15,231 nucleotides of DNA from Planctomycetota bacterium (GTDB lineage Bacteria > Planctomycetota > Phycisphaerae > UBA1845). Below, piece by piece: positions 335 through 12,970 of this stretch. Both the position numbers and the translations under genes were made by a program. The notes beneath the pieces are model-generated. The model ran no database searches and was not told the DNA's origin. It saw nothing but the letters and a program-made list of their open reading frames with translations. The DNA lies in assembly GCA_022566435.1 (NCBI GenBank), contig JADFIX010000008.1, positions 1-15,231 of the forward strand, in the 5' to 3' direction. Every line of letters starts with the position of its first letter. Position 1 is the stretch's first letter.

Positions 335-1183
335 TTGACGATATCTGATTCTCTACGTCGCTCCGGCGGGGTTGCCATTGGTGTGTGCTGTCAGGGAGGC
401 GGTGCCTGCAGTGCGGGGAATTCGCAGGGACAATGTGCCGCGATGAACGGAGAGTACCAAGGCGATGACACCACCTGTGAAGGTGATGATGATGACGACG
501 GCGTTGATGGTACGTGCGGCGACGAGTGTCCGACCGACCCGGACAAGGTCACGCCGGGGATATGTGGTTGTGGAGAGGGGGACGCCGATAGCGATGGCGA
601 CGGCGCACTAGATTGCATCGATAACTGTCCAGAAATCGGTAACCCAGGGCAGGAGGATCGCGACGGTGATGGAATCGGCGATGTCTGTGACAATTGTCCA
701 GAGGATGCGAACCCTGGACAAGGGGACATCGACGGCAATGGAATCGGGGATGCCTGCGAAGAGCCGGGGCAGGCGTGCTGCACCACTTTCTTCGGTGGTG
801 TTTGTGCTAATGCGTCGCCGTCCGTTTGCGCGGGTGTGGGTGGAACCCCACAGGGCTCGGGAACGTCGTGTCTCTCCGGATGCCTTCCAGGAGACGACCC
901 CGTACAGGCCTGTTGCCTACCGGATGGCTCCTGTGTCGAAGACGATCCGATATGTTGTGACGACAGGGGTGGTGTTCCAACGGGCGCACAGGTTTGTCCC
1001 GGGGATTCACTGCCTTGTTTTGGTGACCAAAATGAGGACGGCATCGACGACGCGTGCGAACACACCATCCCGACCGTGTCGGAATGGGGGCTGGCCGTGC
1101 TCGCGCTGCTTCTGCTGGTGAGCGCGAAGATCTGCTTTGCCCGGCGTCGGGTCCGCCCAGGCGTGACGCCCGCGACTTCGTAA
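335..1183 (+). CDS. Cys-rich surface protein with thrombospondin-3-like repeats and IPTL-CTERM tail (5' end uncertain)
   Basis: Probably an exported or cell-surface structural protein of unknown partner. Residues about 17-48, 147-179 and 192-224 are three copies of a CC-rich module (CC..G.C......C...GG...G..TC). Residues about 50-141 hold acidic DxDGDG repeats typical of thrombospondin type 3 calcium-binding segments, including the motif DPDKVTPGICGCG. The C-terminus, from residue 245, is IPTVSEWG followed by a hydrophobic helix and RRR, which is the IPTL-CTERM sorting signature handled by exosortase-like systems (family knowledge). The start is unsettled: TTG at 335 has no Shine-Dalgarno, the frame is open only from 302, and no signal peptide is visible although the CTERM tail implies secretion. 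The gene is therefore likely 5'-truncated or frameshifted. The antisense open frame is a composition artefact. Confidence 0.75.
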   Translation: MTISDSLRRSGGVAIGVCCQGGGACSAGNSQGQCAAMNGEYQGDDTTCEGDDDDDGVDGTCGDECPTDPDKVTPGICGCGEGDADSDGDGALDCIDNCPEIGNPGQEDRDGDGIGDVCDNCPEDANPGQGDIDGNGIGDACEEPGQACCTTFFGGVCANASPSVCAGVGGTPQGSGTSCLSGCLPGDDPVQACCLPDGSCVEDDPICCDDRGGVPTGAQVCPGDSLPCFGDQNEDGIDDACEHTIPTVSEWGLAVLALLLLVSAKICFARRRVRPGVTPATS

Positions 1184-1952: not shown

Positions 1953-3221
1953 ATGACTGCGGATCAGATTCGATCCCTGCAGCCGGAGTTGGCTGCGCTT
2001 TTGGAGACATTCCGGCCTTATCTGCGTCGGGCCTCGAATTTCGGACACTTGGTTGCGTATGTGTTGGGCTTGATGGCGGATCTGAAGCGGAAGAGCATCG
2101 AGCCGATCGCTTTGGCCGCGGGGGCGGCCGTTCGAACGCTGCAGGAGTTTCTCTCGTTTCTGGAGTGGGACCACGAGGGAGCCAACGATCATCTGCATCG
2201 TGTGGTGATGGACCGGCACGGCTGTGCACGGGCGATCGGCGTGATCGACGCCAGCGGGCATGCCAAACAGGGGCGTATGACGCCGGGGGTGGCCCGACAG
2301 TGGTGCGGCGAGAAGGGGAAGGTCGACAACTGCGTGGTGGGCCAGCACTTGTTGTACAGCGACAATCATCCGAGCAATCCGTTCAACTGTGCGCTGGCCA
2401 GCGATCTGTTTGTGCCGGAGAACTGGGCGAAGGACCGCGATCGATGCCGCAAGGCGCACATTCCCGACGAGGTCACGTATCGCCCCAAGTGGCGGATCGC
2501 CTTGGATCAGCTCAAACGGTCCATGGCCAACGGCGTACGGTTTTGGTTCACGGTGTTCGACGAGGACTACGGCAAAGTGCCGCAGTTTTGGTTCGGACTG
2601 GACGCGATGGGACAGCAGGCCATCGGCGAGGTGCCGAGGAATTTTCGTGTTTTCGCCAAGCGGCCCGCCTGTCGGTCCCAGCAGAAGGCGCACCGGCCCA
2701 AACGTGTCGACAACCTCTGTCGCTTCAGCCCCCTTTTTCGCGAGCCGCCTTGGCAGCGCGTGACCGTGCGTCATGCCACCCGTGGACCGATTGTGTGGGA
2801 GGTCAAGATGGCCCGCGTGCACATGGTGGTTGCCCGTCCACGCCCGTCGCGTCCGACCGATCGACGGTATGCGTTGATCGTGGCCCGCAACGTGGACACG
2901 GGCGAGATCAAGTATTTCATCAGCAACGCTGCGGCCAGTGTGCCCCTGTGCGACCTGCTGACGGCGGCCTTCGCTCGTTGGCAGATCGAACTGTGGTTCG
3001 AACGAGCCAAACAAGAGGCCGGCTTTGGGGCGTTCGAGGTGCGAACCTATCGCAGTCTCTTACGTCATTGGTTCTGTTCGCGACTGGCGATGTACTTCCT
3101 GGCTGCTCAAACGCAACGGCTTCGGGGGGGAAAATCAGCGGATCACGCTGGAGCAAGTGGCCGAAGCGGCCAACGCTCTGGCGTGGACCCTTTGGATGCG
3201 TACGTGGCGCTCGCCGGATGA
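1953..3221 (+). CDS. IS701-family DDE transposase, C-terminus frameshifted
   Basis: Cut-and-paste type DDE transposase. The first catalytic Asp is D99 in VIDASGHAKQG, followed by the family-typical GVARQWCGEKGKVDNC. A second candidate is D203 in VFDEDYG, and the Glu lies in WFERAKQEAGFGAFEVR. ATG at 1953 has AGGAG eight bases upstream. After residues AAQTQRLRG the frame runs through a seven-G tract (3124-3130) into a low-sense tail ending at 3221. Removing one G restores an IS701-like C-terminus (ENQRITLEQVAEAANALAW and on to WRSPDEIAARCTYYQARNHA), stopping at 3267. The intact protein would be about 437 residues, within the family's usual size. The copy is probably inactive, unless the extra G is a sequencing error or slippage on the tract recodes it. 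Confidence 0.88.
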   Translation: MTADQIRSLQPELAALLETFRPYLRRASNFGHLVAYVLGLMADLKRKSIEPIALAAGAAVRTLQEFLSFLEWDHEGANDHLHRVVMDRHGCARAIGVIDASGHAKQGRMTPGVARQWCGEKGKVDNCVVGQHLLYSDNHPSNPFNCALASDLFVPENWAKDRDRCRKAHIPDEVTYRPKWRIALDQLKRSMANGVRFWFTVFDEDYGKVPQFWFGLDAMGQQAIGEVPRNFRVFAKRPACRSQQKAHRPKRVDNLCRFSPLFREPPWQRVTVRHATRGPIVWEVKMARVHMVVARPRPSRPTDRRYALIVARNVDTGEIKYFISNAAASVPLCDLLTAAFARWQIELWFERAKQEAGFGAFEVRTYRSLLRHWFCSRLAMYFLAAQTQRLRGGKSADHAGASGRSGQRSGVDPLDAYVALAG

Positions 3222-6185: not shown

Positions 6186-7013
6186 CTAGGACTCTTCGAC
6201 CAGCCCCGACGCGAGTTCGTCCAAAAATCCCGCGACGCTGCGAATCAACTCATCGCGCGGCAGGCCCGCGCGTAACGCATTGTCGATTCTTCGAATGATC
6301 GCACTGCCGACGATGGCCCCGTCCGCGTATCGGCATACTTGGCGGACATGATCCGCGGAACTGACCCCGAATCCGACACAGACCGGGAGACCGCTGACCC
6401 GACGAAGTTCGGCGACGGACTGCGGAAGATCGTCCGCCAAGCGAGCCCGCTCTCCGGTAATCCCCGAGACTGCAATTTGATATACGAATCCGGTCGAATT
6501 CTTGGCGATGGCGATGCGCCGCTGCGGGGATGTCGTTGGGGCTACCAATCCGATATGGCAAAGCCCGGCACGGGTGACGGCCGCCACCGCTAGGCAAGAT
6601 TCCTCCACGGGCACGTCGGGCAAGATGACGCCGTCAAATCCGGCGGCCGCCGACTGTGCAAGAAATGCATCCACGCCGAATCGGTGCACAATCGAATAGG
6701 AAACCATCGCCACGAGGCCGCACGCCACGCTTTTGCGGACTTGCGACACCAAACGAAAGGTGTTTTCCAACTTGTGCCCGTTCTCGAGAACGTAATGGAA
6801 GGACTCCTGGATCACCGGGCCGTCCGCGATGGAATCCGAGAAGGGAAACCCGAGTTCAACAACTGCCGCTCCTAAGCTGTCGGCGTGGCGAATCAAGGCT
6901 GCCGTCGCCTCGGCGTCGGGAAAGCCGGCGGTGAAATAGGGCAGGAAGGCGCCGCACATGCCGCTTTTCCGATTCTCCAGTCGGGCTCGGATTCTCTTTT
7001 CCGTATGCATCAT
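6186..7013 (-). CDS. trpA: Tryptophan synthase alpha subunit
   Basis: Cleaves indole-3-glycerol phosphate to indole and glyceraldehyde-3-phosphate, passing indole to TrpB (family knowledge). The 275 residues match the usual length of a single TIM barrel. Visible signatures are PYFTAGFPD, VELGFPFSDSIADGP carrying the catalytic pair E53 and D64 (equivalent to E49 and D60 of Salmonella TrpA), GVILPDVP, VAPTTSP, Y178 in FVYQIAVSGITG (equivalent to Y175), and the phosphate-binding GFGVSS and GAIVGSAII. Two adjacent ATG codons open the gene; 7013 is used, although no clear Shine-Dalgarno precedes either. No trpB or other trp gene is adjacent. trpF lies 5 kb away on the opposite strand, so the pathway is dispersed here. 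Confidence 0.95.
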   Translation of the reverse strand: MMHTEKRIRARLENRKSGMCGAFLPYFTAGFPDAEATAALIRHADSLGAAVVELGFPFSDSIADGPVIQESFHYVLENGHKLENTFRLVSQVRKSVACGLVAMVSYSIVHRFGVDAFLAQSAAAGFDGVILPDVPVEESCLAVAAVTRAGLCHIGLVAPTTSPQRRIAIAKNSTGFVYQIAVSGITGERARLADDLPQSVAELRRVSGLPVCVGFGVSSADHVRQVCRYADGAIVGSAIIRRIDNALRAGLPRDELIRSVAGFLDELASGLVEES

Positions 7014-7050
7014 AAGGAGCCAGCCGATCGATCCTTTCGGATCAAAGCCC

Positions 7051-7087
7051 TCTATACCGGCGTCTGCCAGACTCGTCCAACGAGTCT
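7051..7087 (-). promoter_or_regulatory. Candidate trpA promoter overlapped by a dyad
   Basis: On the minus strand, TTGGAC (7080-7075) and TATAGA (7056-7051) are 18 bp apart, upstream of trpA. A 7-bp perfect dyad, AGACTCG (7069-7075) and CGAGTCT (7081-7087) with a 5-bp centre, covers the -35. This is the geometry of an operator. Both promoter boxes are weak matches, so this is inference. Confidence 0.35.
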
Positions 7088-7198
7088 ACGTTCGATCGAT
7101 GATTATCTTGTGGGCGCTTCGTTTTCGACACGCACGTGGCGCGCCGGTACGGGTCATGCTGTAATTCCCGGCGGCAACATAGGTTACATGGCATGCTC

Positions 7199-7221
7199 GG
7201 CCCCGCACTTCCCTCGGGGCC
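7199..7221. other. GC-rich hairpin in the trpA / ncRNA gap
   Basis: GGCCCCG (7199-7205) and CGGGGCC (7215-7221) form a 7-bp perfect stem with a 9-base loop. Neither side has a clear T tract. I see no gene in 7088-7300. Confidence 0.35.
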
Positions 7222-7304
7222 ACTTCTATTCCCTGGCACGTGCCTCCTGAAACTCTTCCTTGGCAGCCCGCATGTTTTTCCTTTTCTCGCGAACGTCGAT
7301 TGGC

Positions 7305-7310
7305 TATAAT
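7305..7310 (+). promoter_or_regulatory. -10 of the 6S-like RNA
   Basis: A perfect TATAAT stands seven bases before the first paired base region of the RNA. The -35 is weak (TTTCTC at 17 bp spacing). The predicted start is near 7317. Confidence 0.55.
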
Positions 7311-7316
7311 ACACAT

Positions 7317-7571
7317 GTCTGCTCGGTGTGACTTTCATGTTCGGCAGGGAGCCAACTATTTGGCCGAACCGATATGAGAACCCGAGGAGGCTTTCGTCGG
7401 TCAACGAACGACGTACCGACTCCTTTCGAGGTCGGCGGTCTGAGTTGCGGAAAGCCACCCACGTTGAAATAAGGGTTCTGCCAAGGGGCTCCCACCGGCA
7501 TTACGGCGGTTGCTCCGGGCGTGACGTAAAGATATCGGGCTTGCGCTTTCGGCGCAAGCCCGTTCTTTTTT
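7317..7571 (+). ncRNA. ssrS: 6S-like regulatory RNA
   Basis: 6S RNA mimics an open promoter and sequesters the housekeeping RNA polymerase. The sequence folds as one long rod of nested stems: GCTCGG 7321-7326 with CCGGGC 7515-7520; GGGAGCC 7347-7353 with GGCTCCC 7487-7493; TTTGGC 7359-7364 with GCCAAG 7480-7485; AGAACCC 7377-7383 with GGGTTCT 7473-7479; GGCTTTC 7389-7395 with GAAAGCC 7450-7456; and an apical hairpin GTCGGT/ACCGAC 7396-7420. The 3' side at 7460-7478, CACGUUGAAAUAAGGGUUC, matches 16 of 19 positions of E. coli 6S (CACCUUGAACCAAGGGUUC, from memory), and ACGGCGG further 3' also resembles it. A promoter and intrinsic terminator frame it. The mature form would be about 200 nt, the usual 6S size. 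The identification rests on the eye, not on a covariance search. Confidence 0.72.
7536..7571 (+). terminator. Intrinsic terminator of the 6S-like RNA
   Basis: An 11-bp perfect stem, CGGGCTTGCGC (7536-7546) and GCGCAAGCCCG (7552-7562), with loop TTTCG, is followed directly by TTCTTTTTT. It is the strongest terminator in the window and points to transcription on the plus strand. Confidence 0.9.
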
Positions 7572-7666
7572 CCACCGTGGGGCCTGCCACTTCGTGGGAT
7601 GCGGCGGGTTCGGGTTGTGGAGATGGACCGCCGAGCCACGATCCGTGCATTCACTCCAGCCTGATG

Positions 7667-7672
7667 TATACT
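7667..7672 (+). promoter_or_regulatory. Candidate -10 giving a leaderless mRNA
   Basis: TATACT lies seven bases before ATG at 7680, so transcription would start on or next to the A of the start codon. No Shine-Dalgarno precedes this ATG. The -35 is not clear. Confidence 0.4.
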
Positions 7673-7679
7673 TTCTGTC

Positions 7680-8921
7680 ATGAAAGGCATCGTCCTATTT
7701 GATGACAGAGGTTTTTCCGATCTTCTTCCGCTGACTCTTTGGCGATCCATCGGCGAACTTCGTTTGGGGCGGAAGCTTCTCTTGGATCGAACCGCCCAGC
7801 GTCTCGGCCTCCCCATTGTGGGCATCTGGTCACACGCGTGGCTTGCGGCGGTGGCCGCTCATCGTTGCGGTGCTCCCGCAAATAAGCCGATCGAAGAGGG
7901 CGGCGTTCTGGTCAATAGTCGGTGGCTTGTCGACGAAACGCCCGAGTTTTCGCCTTCGCCGCATGTCGGGGTCGTGGGGGACGAGGTGGCATTCGTCGTT
8001 GTCGACCGAAAGTTGGCGGATGGCCTGCGTCCCAACGATTTTTTGGACCACTCCGCTGAAGAGGAGGCTCTCAGCGGGCTCCCGCGCATGGAAGTGGGCG
8101 GTCGAATGATCCGCTATCCATGGGATATCATTGGTCATGTGGGCGAGCTCTTGGTGCAGGATTGGCGATCATCGGAGGCGGTCATCGAGTCTGAACTGGA
8201 TGCCCGCGTCTTGCTGGTTGGTAAAGATTCGATACACATTGCACAGAACGTGACAATCCATCCCACCGCGGTGATCGACGGTTCCTTCGGGCCCGTTTAC
8301 ATTAGCCATGACGTTTTGATCGGGCCCTACGTTGTCCTCGAAGGGCCGGCGTACATCGGTCCGGGCACTCGCGTGAACCCTCATGCCTACCTTCACGGCG
8401 GCGTGGGGATCGGTCCGATGTGCAAAATCGGGGGCGAAATCGACACGTGCATCCTTGACGGCTATGCCAATAAGCAGCACTCCGGGTTTCTCGGCCACGC
8501 CTACGTCGGCAGTTGGGTCAATATCGGCGCCGGGGCGGAAAACTCCGATTTGAAGAATACTTACAGCACGGTTCGCGTGCCGATTGGCGGCTCGGAGGTC
8601 GACACCGGCACCCTGTTTTTCGGCTGCGTCATCGGTGACCACGCCAAAATCGGGATCAACGCCTCGATTCCGACGGGTGCGGTGATCGGCTTTGCGGCGA
8701 TGATTGCCACCACTCGCTTGTTGCCCAAATTCGTCCCTTCGTTCGGGTGGTTGACCGAGGATGGACTGGCGACGGGGAAAGTGGATTTGATGCTCGACGC
8801 GGCGACACGCATGATGGTCCGTCGCAACGTGGACATGACCGATGAAGAAGTGGAACTGTTCCTCGAAAACGGCGACCGGGCCAAAGCACTCGAGGGCGGG
8901 CGTAGCCGCACGGCCCCTTGA
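7680..8921 (+). CDS. GlmU-like sugar nucleotidyltransferase / left-handed beta-helix acyltransferase
   Basis: The 413 residues fit the alternative bacterial GlmU-like family (putative UDP-GlcNAc diphosphorylase/glucosamine-1-phosphate N-acetyltransferase; family recall). The N-terminus, MKGIVLFDDRGFSDLLPLTLWRS, has the IVLFDD...LLPLT...RP-like opening of that family rather than the classical LxxGxGTRM loop. From about residue 195 a left-handed beta-helix starts, with hexapeptide-like turns (IGPYVVLEGPAYIGPGTRVNPHAYLHGGVGIGP), then LGHAYVGSWVNIGAGAENSDLKN, FFGCVIGDHAKIGINASI and PKFVPSFGW, all hallmarks. Its likely job is making an activated amino sugar for the envelope. ATG at 7680 fits the family N-terminus, although transcription may be leaderless. 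It converges with the thiamine-binding gene, leaving a 54-bp gap. Confidence 0.88.
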   Translation: MKGIVLFDDRGFSDLLPLTLWRSIGELRLGRKLLLDRTAQRLGLPIVGIWSHAWLAAVAAHRCGAPANKPIEEGGVLVNSRWLVDETPEFSPSPHVGVVGDEVAFVVVDRKLADGLRPNDFLDHSAEEEALSGLPRMEVGGRMIRYPWDIIGHVGELLVQDWRSSEAVIESELDARVLLVGKDSIHIAQNVTIHPTAVIDGSFGPVYISHDVLIGPYVVLEGPAYIGPGTRVNPHAYLHGGVGIGPMCKIGGEIDTCILDGYANKQHSGFLGHAYVGSWVNIGAGAENSDLKNTYSTVRVPIGGSEVDTGTLFFGCVIGDHAKIGINASIPTGAVIGFAAMIATTRLLPKFVPSFGWLTEDGLATGKVDLMLDAATRMMVRRNVDMTDEEVELFLENGDRAKALEGGRSRTAP

Positions 8922-12292: not shown

Positions 12293-12970
12293 GTGTCCAA
12301 TAGCACCATCATCAAGATCTGCGGTTGCACCGGTAAGGACGATGCGCGGTTCGCCCTGCAAAACGGCGCGGACTGGATCGGGCTGAATCTCGTGGGCGGG
12401 CCGCGAGAAATCCGCCTGGCTGATGCGTTGGCCATCCTCGATGGTCTCGACGATCCGTCTCGCGCCGTGTTCCTGCTGTCCGTGGAGGACGAAACAAGCT
12501 TTGATAAAATTATTGAAAATCTGAAACCGAATGGTGTGCGCCGTTTGCAGCTTTATGGCCACGTCGCGCCGAGAATCATCCAACGAGCGGAGCAGCAGGG
12601 ATTCGAGACCATCAAGGTGCAGGCGATCGCCGACGAGGATTCGATTCGTGCCGCCGATGAGTTTTTGAGCGACTGCGCCACCGCCGGACCGACGTACCTG
12701 TTGCTCGATGCGTCATCGGAAAGGCAACTCGGCGGTACGGGGCGACGCGCGAATTGGCCGGTTATTGAGAACGCGCAACAAAAAGGCCGACTTGTCGACT
12801 GGCCGCCGCAGATCCTGGCCGGTGGTTTGAATGCCGAGAACGTAGCCGAAGCCCTTCGACGTGTCCGCCCGGCCGGCGTCGACGTGAGTTCCGGCGTTGA
12901 ATCGTCACCGGGCCGAAAGGACCCAGTAAAGGTGACCGCCTTCACTGAAGCTGTTCGGGGTCAAAGATGA
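12293..12970 (+). CDS. trpF: Phosphoribosylanthranilate isomerase
   Basis: Third step of tryptophan synthesis: Amadori rearrangement of PRA to CdRP in a TIM barrel (family knowledge). The 225 residues are of normal length. IKICGCT carries the general base C10, LLLDA carries the general acid D139, GGTG at 147-150 follows, and ILAGGLNAENVAEAL and GVDVSSGVESSPGRKDPVKV give the phosphate-binding end. Two motifs are unusual: LQLYGH stands where most enzymes have QLHG, and PREI replaces the common SPRY/SPRx. GTG at 12293 has GAGGG six bases upstream and gives the expected N-terminus. The gene is monocistronic, with no trpB or trpC beside it, and converges with the GH130 gene. Confidence 0.95.
   Translation: MSNSTIIKICGCTGKDDARFALQNGADWIGLNLVGGPREIRLADALAILDGLDDPSRAVFLLSVEDETSFDKIIENLKPNGVRRLQLYGHVAPRIIQRAEQQGFETIKVQAIADEDSIRAADEFLSDCATAGPTYLLLDASSERQLGGTGRRANWPVIENAQQKGRLVDWPPQILAGGLNAENVAEALRRVRPAGVDVSSGVESSPGRKDPVKVTAFTEAVRGQR

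Follow-up and report, generated by a model that had tools for sequence, protein, structure and literature searches.

The locus and its neighbourhood

The window, a stretch of 15,231 nucleotides from an uncultured Planctomycetota bacterium of the class Phycisphaerae, holds trpA and a GlmU-like sugar nucleotidyltransferase gene on opposite strands, and the gap between them accommodates an RNA element preceded by a -10 box and followed by an intrinsic terminator (Table 1).

Table 1. Features of the RNA locus and its flanking genes, in window coordinates.
Feature	Position	Strand	Particulars	Evidence
trpA (tryptophan synthase alpha)	6186-7013	-		Pfam PF00290
-10 element TATAAT	7305-7310	+	six bases upstream of G7317	
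Core of the very probable 6S RNA	7317-7526	+		RF00013 7326-7516; R1 7324-7517
Closing and lower stems, 5' strand	7328-7353	+	partners 7487-7513	helices 1 and 2, paired in 91.4% and 87.9% of cells
Predicted product-RNA (pRNA) template	7360-7373	+	start opposite U7373	inference
Helix P2, 5' strand, below the central bubble	7361-7370	+	first copy GAACC 7366-7370; partners 7474-7483	helix 3, paired in 88.9% of cells
Central bubble, 5' side	7371-7385	+		RF00013 alignment
Second copy GAACCC, candidate collapse (release) helix strand	7378-7383	+	with 7473-7478	pairing counts, blocked folds
Upper-stem base GG-A-GGCUUU	7386-7394	+	A7457 opposite; partners 7451-7459	helix 4, paired in 77.2% of cells
Apical hairpin	7410-7440	+	GACGUACCGACU...GGUCGGCGGUC	helices 5 and 6; alignment and pattern scan
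Central bubble, 3' side, with GGGUUC	7461-7478	+	GGGUUC 7473-7478 is the 3' strand of P2	RF00013 alignment, pairing counts
Intrinsic terminator	7536-7571	+	12-pair stem 7536-7562, then T-rich tail TTCTTTTTTC	
Sugar nucleotidyltransferase with hexapeptide repeats (GlmU-like)	7680-8921	+		Pfam PF13562, PF00132

The first-pass annotation, made from the letters of the window, had placed a consensus TATAAT upstream of the RNA and an 11-bp terminator downstream; the former is present in the sequence, and the latter exists with a stem that we count as 12 pairs. The -10 box is kept among relatives: in an alignment of 16 sequences including its own, inspected by eye, TATAAT is exact in 11, carries one mismatch in four and is not clear in one (L015). 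A sigma-70 scan of positions 7000-7800 returned a good -10 element without a -35 consensus, and so without a complete promoter. The ends of the core, 5' GUC and 3' GAC, pair with each other in relatives (alignment, by eye), and transcription probably continues past the core and the terminator stem as far as about 7571. The terminator scan alone proves nothing, because a shuffled region yields 1.2 terminator-like sites on average; the relatives' alignment, judged by eye and uncounted, has a hairpin at this position, with T tails that are poor in some sequences (e.g. L004, L005).

The neighbouring genes are likewise kept. Counting the window's own locus, and within flanks of up to 1.5 kb with some loci ending at contig ends, the nucleotidyltransferase accompanies the RNA in 22 of 30 close loci, and trpA does so in 15. 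This supports orthology of the RNA across these genomes, and also raises the possibility of a cis-acting leader, which is weighed below.

Elsewhere in the window, trpF (PRAI, Pfam; 12293-12970, plus strand) is about 5 kb from trpA on the opposite strand with other genes between, so that the trp genes are dispersed. A transposase-like gene (1953-3221, plus strand; Pfam DDE_5 PF13546, E 1.9e-52) lies about 3 kb past the far end of trpA. The open reading frame at 335-1183 (plus strand) contains many DxDxDG-like calcium-binding motifs and ends in IPTVSEWGLAVLALLLLVSAKICFARRR, which we take to resemble an IPTL-CTERM sorting tail.

Family assignment and covarying structure

In other bacteria, 6S RNA is a small RNA that grips and silences RNA polymerase. 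A probable 6S RNA had been annotated in this gap, with a search by the Rfam 6S covariance model suggested as a check, and that search bore the annotation out. With cmscan against Rfam 15 at a relaxed threshold, RF00013 (6S) was the top of four Rfam matches in the window, covering 7326-7516 on the plus strand over model positions 1-187 with 36.9 bits (E 1.7e-4); the remaining three (mir-92, sR23 and Rev44, E 3.3-6.3) were taken as chance. In the source assembly, which is 63.6% complete, the locus is the sole RF00013 match (E 1.3e-5). A clade model, R1, built from the window's sequence and those of 15 relatives, matches the window at 7324-7517, its next-best match in the same genome having an E value of 8.2. 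The RF00013 score falls below the gathering cut-off of 46.4 bits, a curation rule rather than a biological trait, so default Rfam annotation would miss the RNA. It was nonetheless filed as a member of the family because the same RNA in relatives from its family and order passes the cut-off (e.g. G176, G014, G114 and G003 (its family)) and because its structure covaries.

The Rfam 6S structure aligns over its full length (1-187): the window supplies both partners for 48 of its 51 pairs, and 44 of those 48 are standard. Escherichia coli ssrS falls on the same columns of the RF00013 alignment as the window RNA. The likeness to the E. coli 3' internal loop given in the first-pass annotation proved correct against the MG1655 gene: window positions 7460-7478 (CACGTTGAAATAAGGGTTC) and MG1655 ssrS (CACCTTGAACCAAGGGTTC) are identical at 16 of 19 positions.

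The rod of about 200 nucleotides with nested stems and an apical hairpin that had been drawn from the letters was recovered both by thermodynamic folding and by the Rfam structure. The plus-strand sequence 7317-7535 folds at -87.8 kcal/mol (RNAfold; z -2.62), with 2 of 200 dinucleotide shuffles equal or better, and alignment and folds together place a closing stem, a large central bubble, an upper stem and an apical hairpin in the window RNA. An RNA from the minus strand was rejected, its fold being weaker (z -2.14, 5 of 200 shuffles equal or better) and none of the four Rfam matches lying on that strand.

Compensatory changes keep the stems in related genomes, as a genuine structure had been expected to show. 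In a MAFFT alignment of 16 sequences (A2), 87.4% of 749 cells were paired in the 6S structure, counted here as the Rfam alignment pairs together with lower-stem and apical pairs taken from the folds, a few weak pairs being dropped, and the pairing fell to 29.8-49.7% when slid by one to three columns. Double changes affected 27 of 47 pairs against a shuffled mean of 14.9, with none of 500 shuffles as high; the weakest helix was the upper stem (77.2% paired). RNAalifold run on the relatives' alignment also predicts the rod, with double changes in 21 of 39 pairs. In an 82-sequence alignment, itself fitted to the model, 89.2% of cells were paired and 40 of 47 pairs had double changes, against 32.0 when shuffled. 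These data demonstrate homology and a covarying rod, and we regard it as nearly certain that 7317-7526 on the plus strand is the 6S RNA (ssrS) gene of this genome and a divergent representative of an established family.

The apical hairpin at 7410-7440 is strongly conserved among close relatives, other apical sequences being found in the rest of the order; many genomes of the window's family carry it almost unchanged as ACGACGUACCGACCCC...GGUUGGCGGUC.

Three other accounts of the locus were considered. Since RNA and terminator lie on the same strand as the nucleotidyltransferase gene and just upstream of it, the element might be a cis-acting leader, either a riboswitch or an attenuator, in which the terminator controls read-through, and the persistence of that gene in 22 of the 30 close loci agrees with such a role. 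A leader is nevertheless very unlikely because the match to a trans-acting family, RF00013, is full-length; moreover, the gene was not found within the flanks of 8 of the 30 loci, some of which end at contig ends, and Rfam offered no competing leader family with E below 3. The general 6S-like shape would equally suit an RNA of the Ms1 type, an actinobacterial RNA that is reported to bind core polymerase rather than holoenzyme; here, however, the RF00013 sequence match over positions 1-187, the CCGAU at the pRNA start and the 3'-bubble segment shared with E. coli at 16 of 19 positions make this highly improbable, the search for Ms1 itself having been the scan of the Rfam library. Open reading frames do exist mechanically across the gap (7328-7702 on the plus strand and 7304-7825 on the minus strand), but coding was rejected because core lengths vary by one and two bases from relative to relative (e.g. 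194, 193, 192); substitutions, moreover, follow base pairs, and a protein-coding stretch or a chance structure has a negligible probability.

Occurrence among planctomycetes

A blastn search with 7270-7575 found the RNA in 15 of the 39 other genomes, or 16 of 40 once the window's own is counted, and R1 extended it to 99 of the 114 genomes of the order, that is, to 83 of the 98 outside model building. Each positive genome has one R1 match except one with two (L099 and L100, G282:C1:1228693-1228880 on the minus and 1597045-1597231 on the plus strand), an arrangement that to us is reminiscent of 6S-1 and 6S-2 in Bacillus. R1 had no match in 15 of the 114 genomes, seven of them in family f5 and four at least 97% complete, which may reflect true loss, further divergence or loss at the filter stage; the large genome scans were run with the stricter filters of Infernal, and absences in them are soft because these filters lose weak matches.

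At E 0.01, RF00013 located 6S RNA in 123 of the 248 class genomes (67 above the cut-off) and in 152 of the 343 from the phylum (44%; 93 above it). For the window's family within the class sample, 11 of 22 genomes matched and four passed the cut-off. A second model, R2, built from 82 sequences, raised the count in the class to 191 of 248 genomes versus 123 of 248 for RF00013, a comparison in which R2 was built partly from those same genomes; within that sample it matched all 22 genomes from the window's family, including the seven used in neither A2 nor alignment A5. Two R2 matches each were seen in the class genomes G090 and G229. Outside the class R2 brought no gain (140 of 343 phylum genomes versus 152 of 343 for RF00013). 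Of the 18 records that a pattern scan for the apical motif retrieved from named genomes, 17 are titled Phycisphaerae, Phycisphaerales or Planctomycetota and one is labelled only 'bacterium', and the description of the RNA as a divergent planctomycete-type example holds.

The first-pass annotation had left undecided whether the RNA is already catalogued, and the answer is divided: the family is visible to Rfam in this phylum, where relatives exceed the cut-off, and the window locus itself is not. With 93 of 343 phylum genomes above the cut-off, many planctomycete 6S RNAs are very likely on record already in annotation based on Rfam, and planctomycete members may be among the RNAs in Additional File 1 of PMC2864571, a file described there as expanding the 6S collection. 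A single published statement on the matter turned up: a report on Thermogutta terrifontis (PMC5673643) states that 6S RNA was not found there and cites its absence in Pirellula and Rhodopirellula from Wehner et al. Set against this reported absence in three planctomycetes, the present scans detected 6S RNA in roughly half the class genomes sampled and in 44% of those from the phylum. In the open-access literature searched, where absence is not absence from print, no paper describing 6S RNA in Phycisphaerae was found. The novelty is not the family; it is a lineage lying mostly below the Rfam cut-off, whose remaining members a clade model recovers, together with the candidate repeat-based switch described below.

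A candidate release switch, compared with known 6S RNAs

By analogy with the 6S family, from which its transcription, polymerase binding, pRNA start and release are all carried over, the RNA would be transcribed from about 7317 and end at the terminator near 7562-7571. Its predicted rod has a large central bubble resembling an open promoter, so that it should bind the primary-sigma holoenzyme, and the bound enzyme would be held inactive at low nutrients. Once nutrients return, the polymerase would start a short pRNA at about U7373 and copy the P2 5' strand, and this synthesis would free GGGUUC (7473-7478); the freed strand could then pair with the second copy, GAACCC, upon which the bubble would collapse and the enzyme be released. 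The start was placed at U7373 as this residue aligns in the RF00013 alignment with U44 of E. coli, which we take to be the pRNA start there; for an assumed template length of 14 nt, the predicted pRNA would begin 5'-AUCGGUUCGGCC (start also written 5'-AUCGGUUCGG).

The proposed exchange depends on a near repeat, GAACCC at 7378-7383 nearly duplicating GAACC at 7366-7370, and both are complementary to GGGUUC. A stretch of the 5' bubble with at least five of six possible pairs to the GGGUUC strand occurs in all 16 close sequences (sum 92, against a maximum of 83 in 2000 shuffles) and in 98 of 100 order sequences; such best-6-mer counts choose the best register and thereby favour pairing, which makes folding with a shuffled bubble the fairer control. 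In unconstrained folds GGGUUC was held by the first copy (P>0.5) in 82 of 100 order sequences and by the second in 8. When the pRNA template was blocked, the second copy took it (P>0.5) in 83 of the 100 and the 3' bubble in 2, the hundred being related by ancestry and not independent, and 17 did not favour second-copy pairing; with the 5' bubble shuffled, the second copy took GGGUUC in 2-8 of 100 (eight replicates). A conserved capacity for this refolding in silico is demonstrated.

The tendency is weaker outside the order. The 29 sequences folded there were the best-scoring RF00013 hits retained as loci, 20 from the class and 10 from the phylum, less L095, which had no R1 match. Under the blocked template the second copy exceeded 0.5 in 13 of the 20 sequences from the class and in 4 of the 9 from the phylum, and 3 of these 9 preferred the 3' bubble.

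In a rigid six-base register, tested on 35 distinct triples, the second copy and GGGUUC showed no covariation: pairing was 87.1% against 86.4% after shuffling, and 229 of 1000 shuffles reached that level. Single compensatory-looking cases, such as GAAACC with GGTTTC in L012, are too few for proof. The second copy may therefore be conserved for another reason, for instance as a contact of polymerase or sigma factor in the bound state, its complementarity to GGGUUC then being a by-product of its resemblance to the P2 strand. Conservation of GAACCC without rigid-register covariation with the 3' strand agrees with such a contact; the predicted refolding, however, is specific to the real base order (83 of 100 against 2-8 of 100 shuffled), and PMC8876501 reports a helix of this kind in Bacillus subtilis 6S-1 on the basis of probing and mutants. 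We consider a contact role a real contender, though somewhat short of an even chance.

For the release switch itself, we give the second copy GAACCC about an even prospect of acting in this way. The broader reading, that this order of Phycisphaerae keeps a duplicate of the P2 strand in the 5' bubble (GAACC, about 6-11 bases, GAACCC) as a strand-exchange switch in which pRNA synthesis would hand GGGUUC to the second copy, we place at the same midpoint. The candidate built-in switch looks unusually clear in the window RNA. If the switch is true, mutating the repeat would offer a simple way to probe how polymerase is released from 6S RNA outside the gammaproteobacteria, and release through a collapse helix would gain strong comparative support as a conserved route alternative to the 3'-bubble hairpin of gammaproteobacteria.

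Among known 6S-type RNAs, that of E. coli shares with the window RNA the rod, the central bubble over the whole model and CCGAU at the pRNA start, but it scores 139.8 bits on RF00013 versus 36.9. The two also differ under the blocked fold: the freed P2 strand of E. coli pairs inside the 3' bubble (hairpin, P 1.00, same protocol), whereas in the window RNA its predicted partner is the second copy, on the 5' side of the bubble. PMC8876501 describes, for E. coli, opening of the downstream helix by pRNA synthesis and formation of a 9-pair hairpin in the 3' bubble. For B. subtilis 6S-1 and Aquifex aeolicus, the same paper infers a central bubble collapse helix, formed between the freed 3' P2 strand and the distal part of the 5' bubble; three A:U pairs of this helix in B. 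subtilis are called weakest and perhaps transient. Ms1 of Actinobacteria shares with the window RNA a 6S-like shape. In its predicted fold the window RNA resembles B. subtilis 6S-1 and A. aeolicus, as the freed 3' strand of P2 would meet the distal 5' bubble; its helix, compared with the B. subtilis one as described, would have up to six pairs, be GC-rich and derive from a near repeat of the P2 strand.
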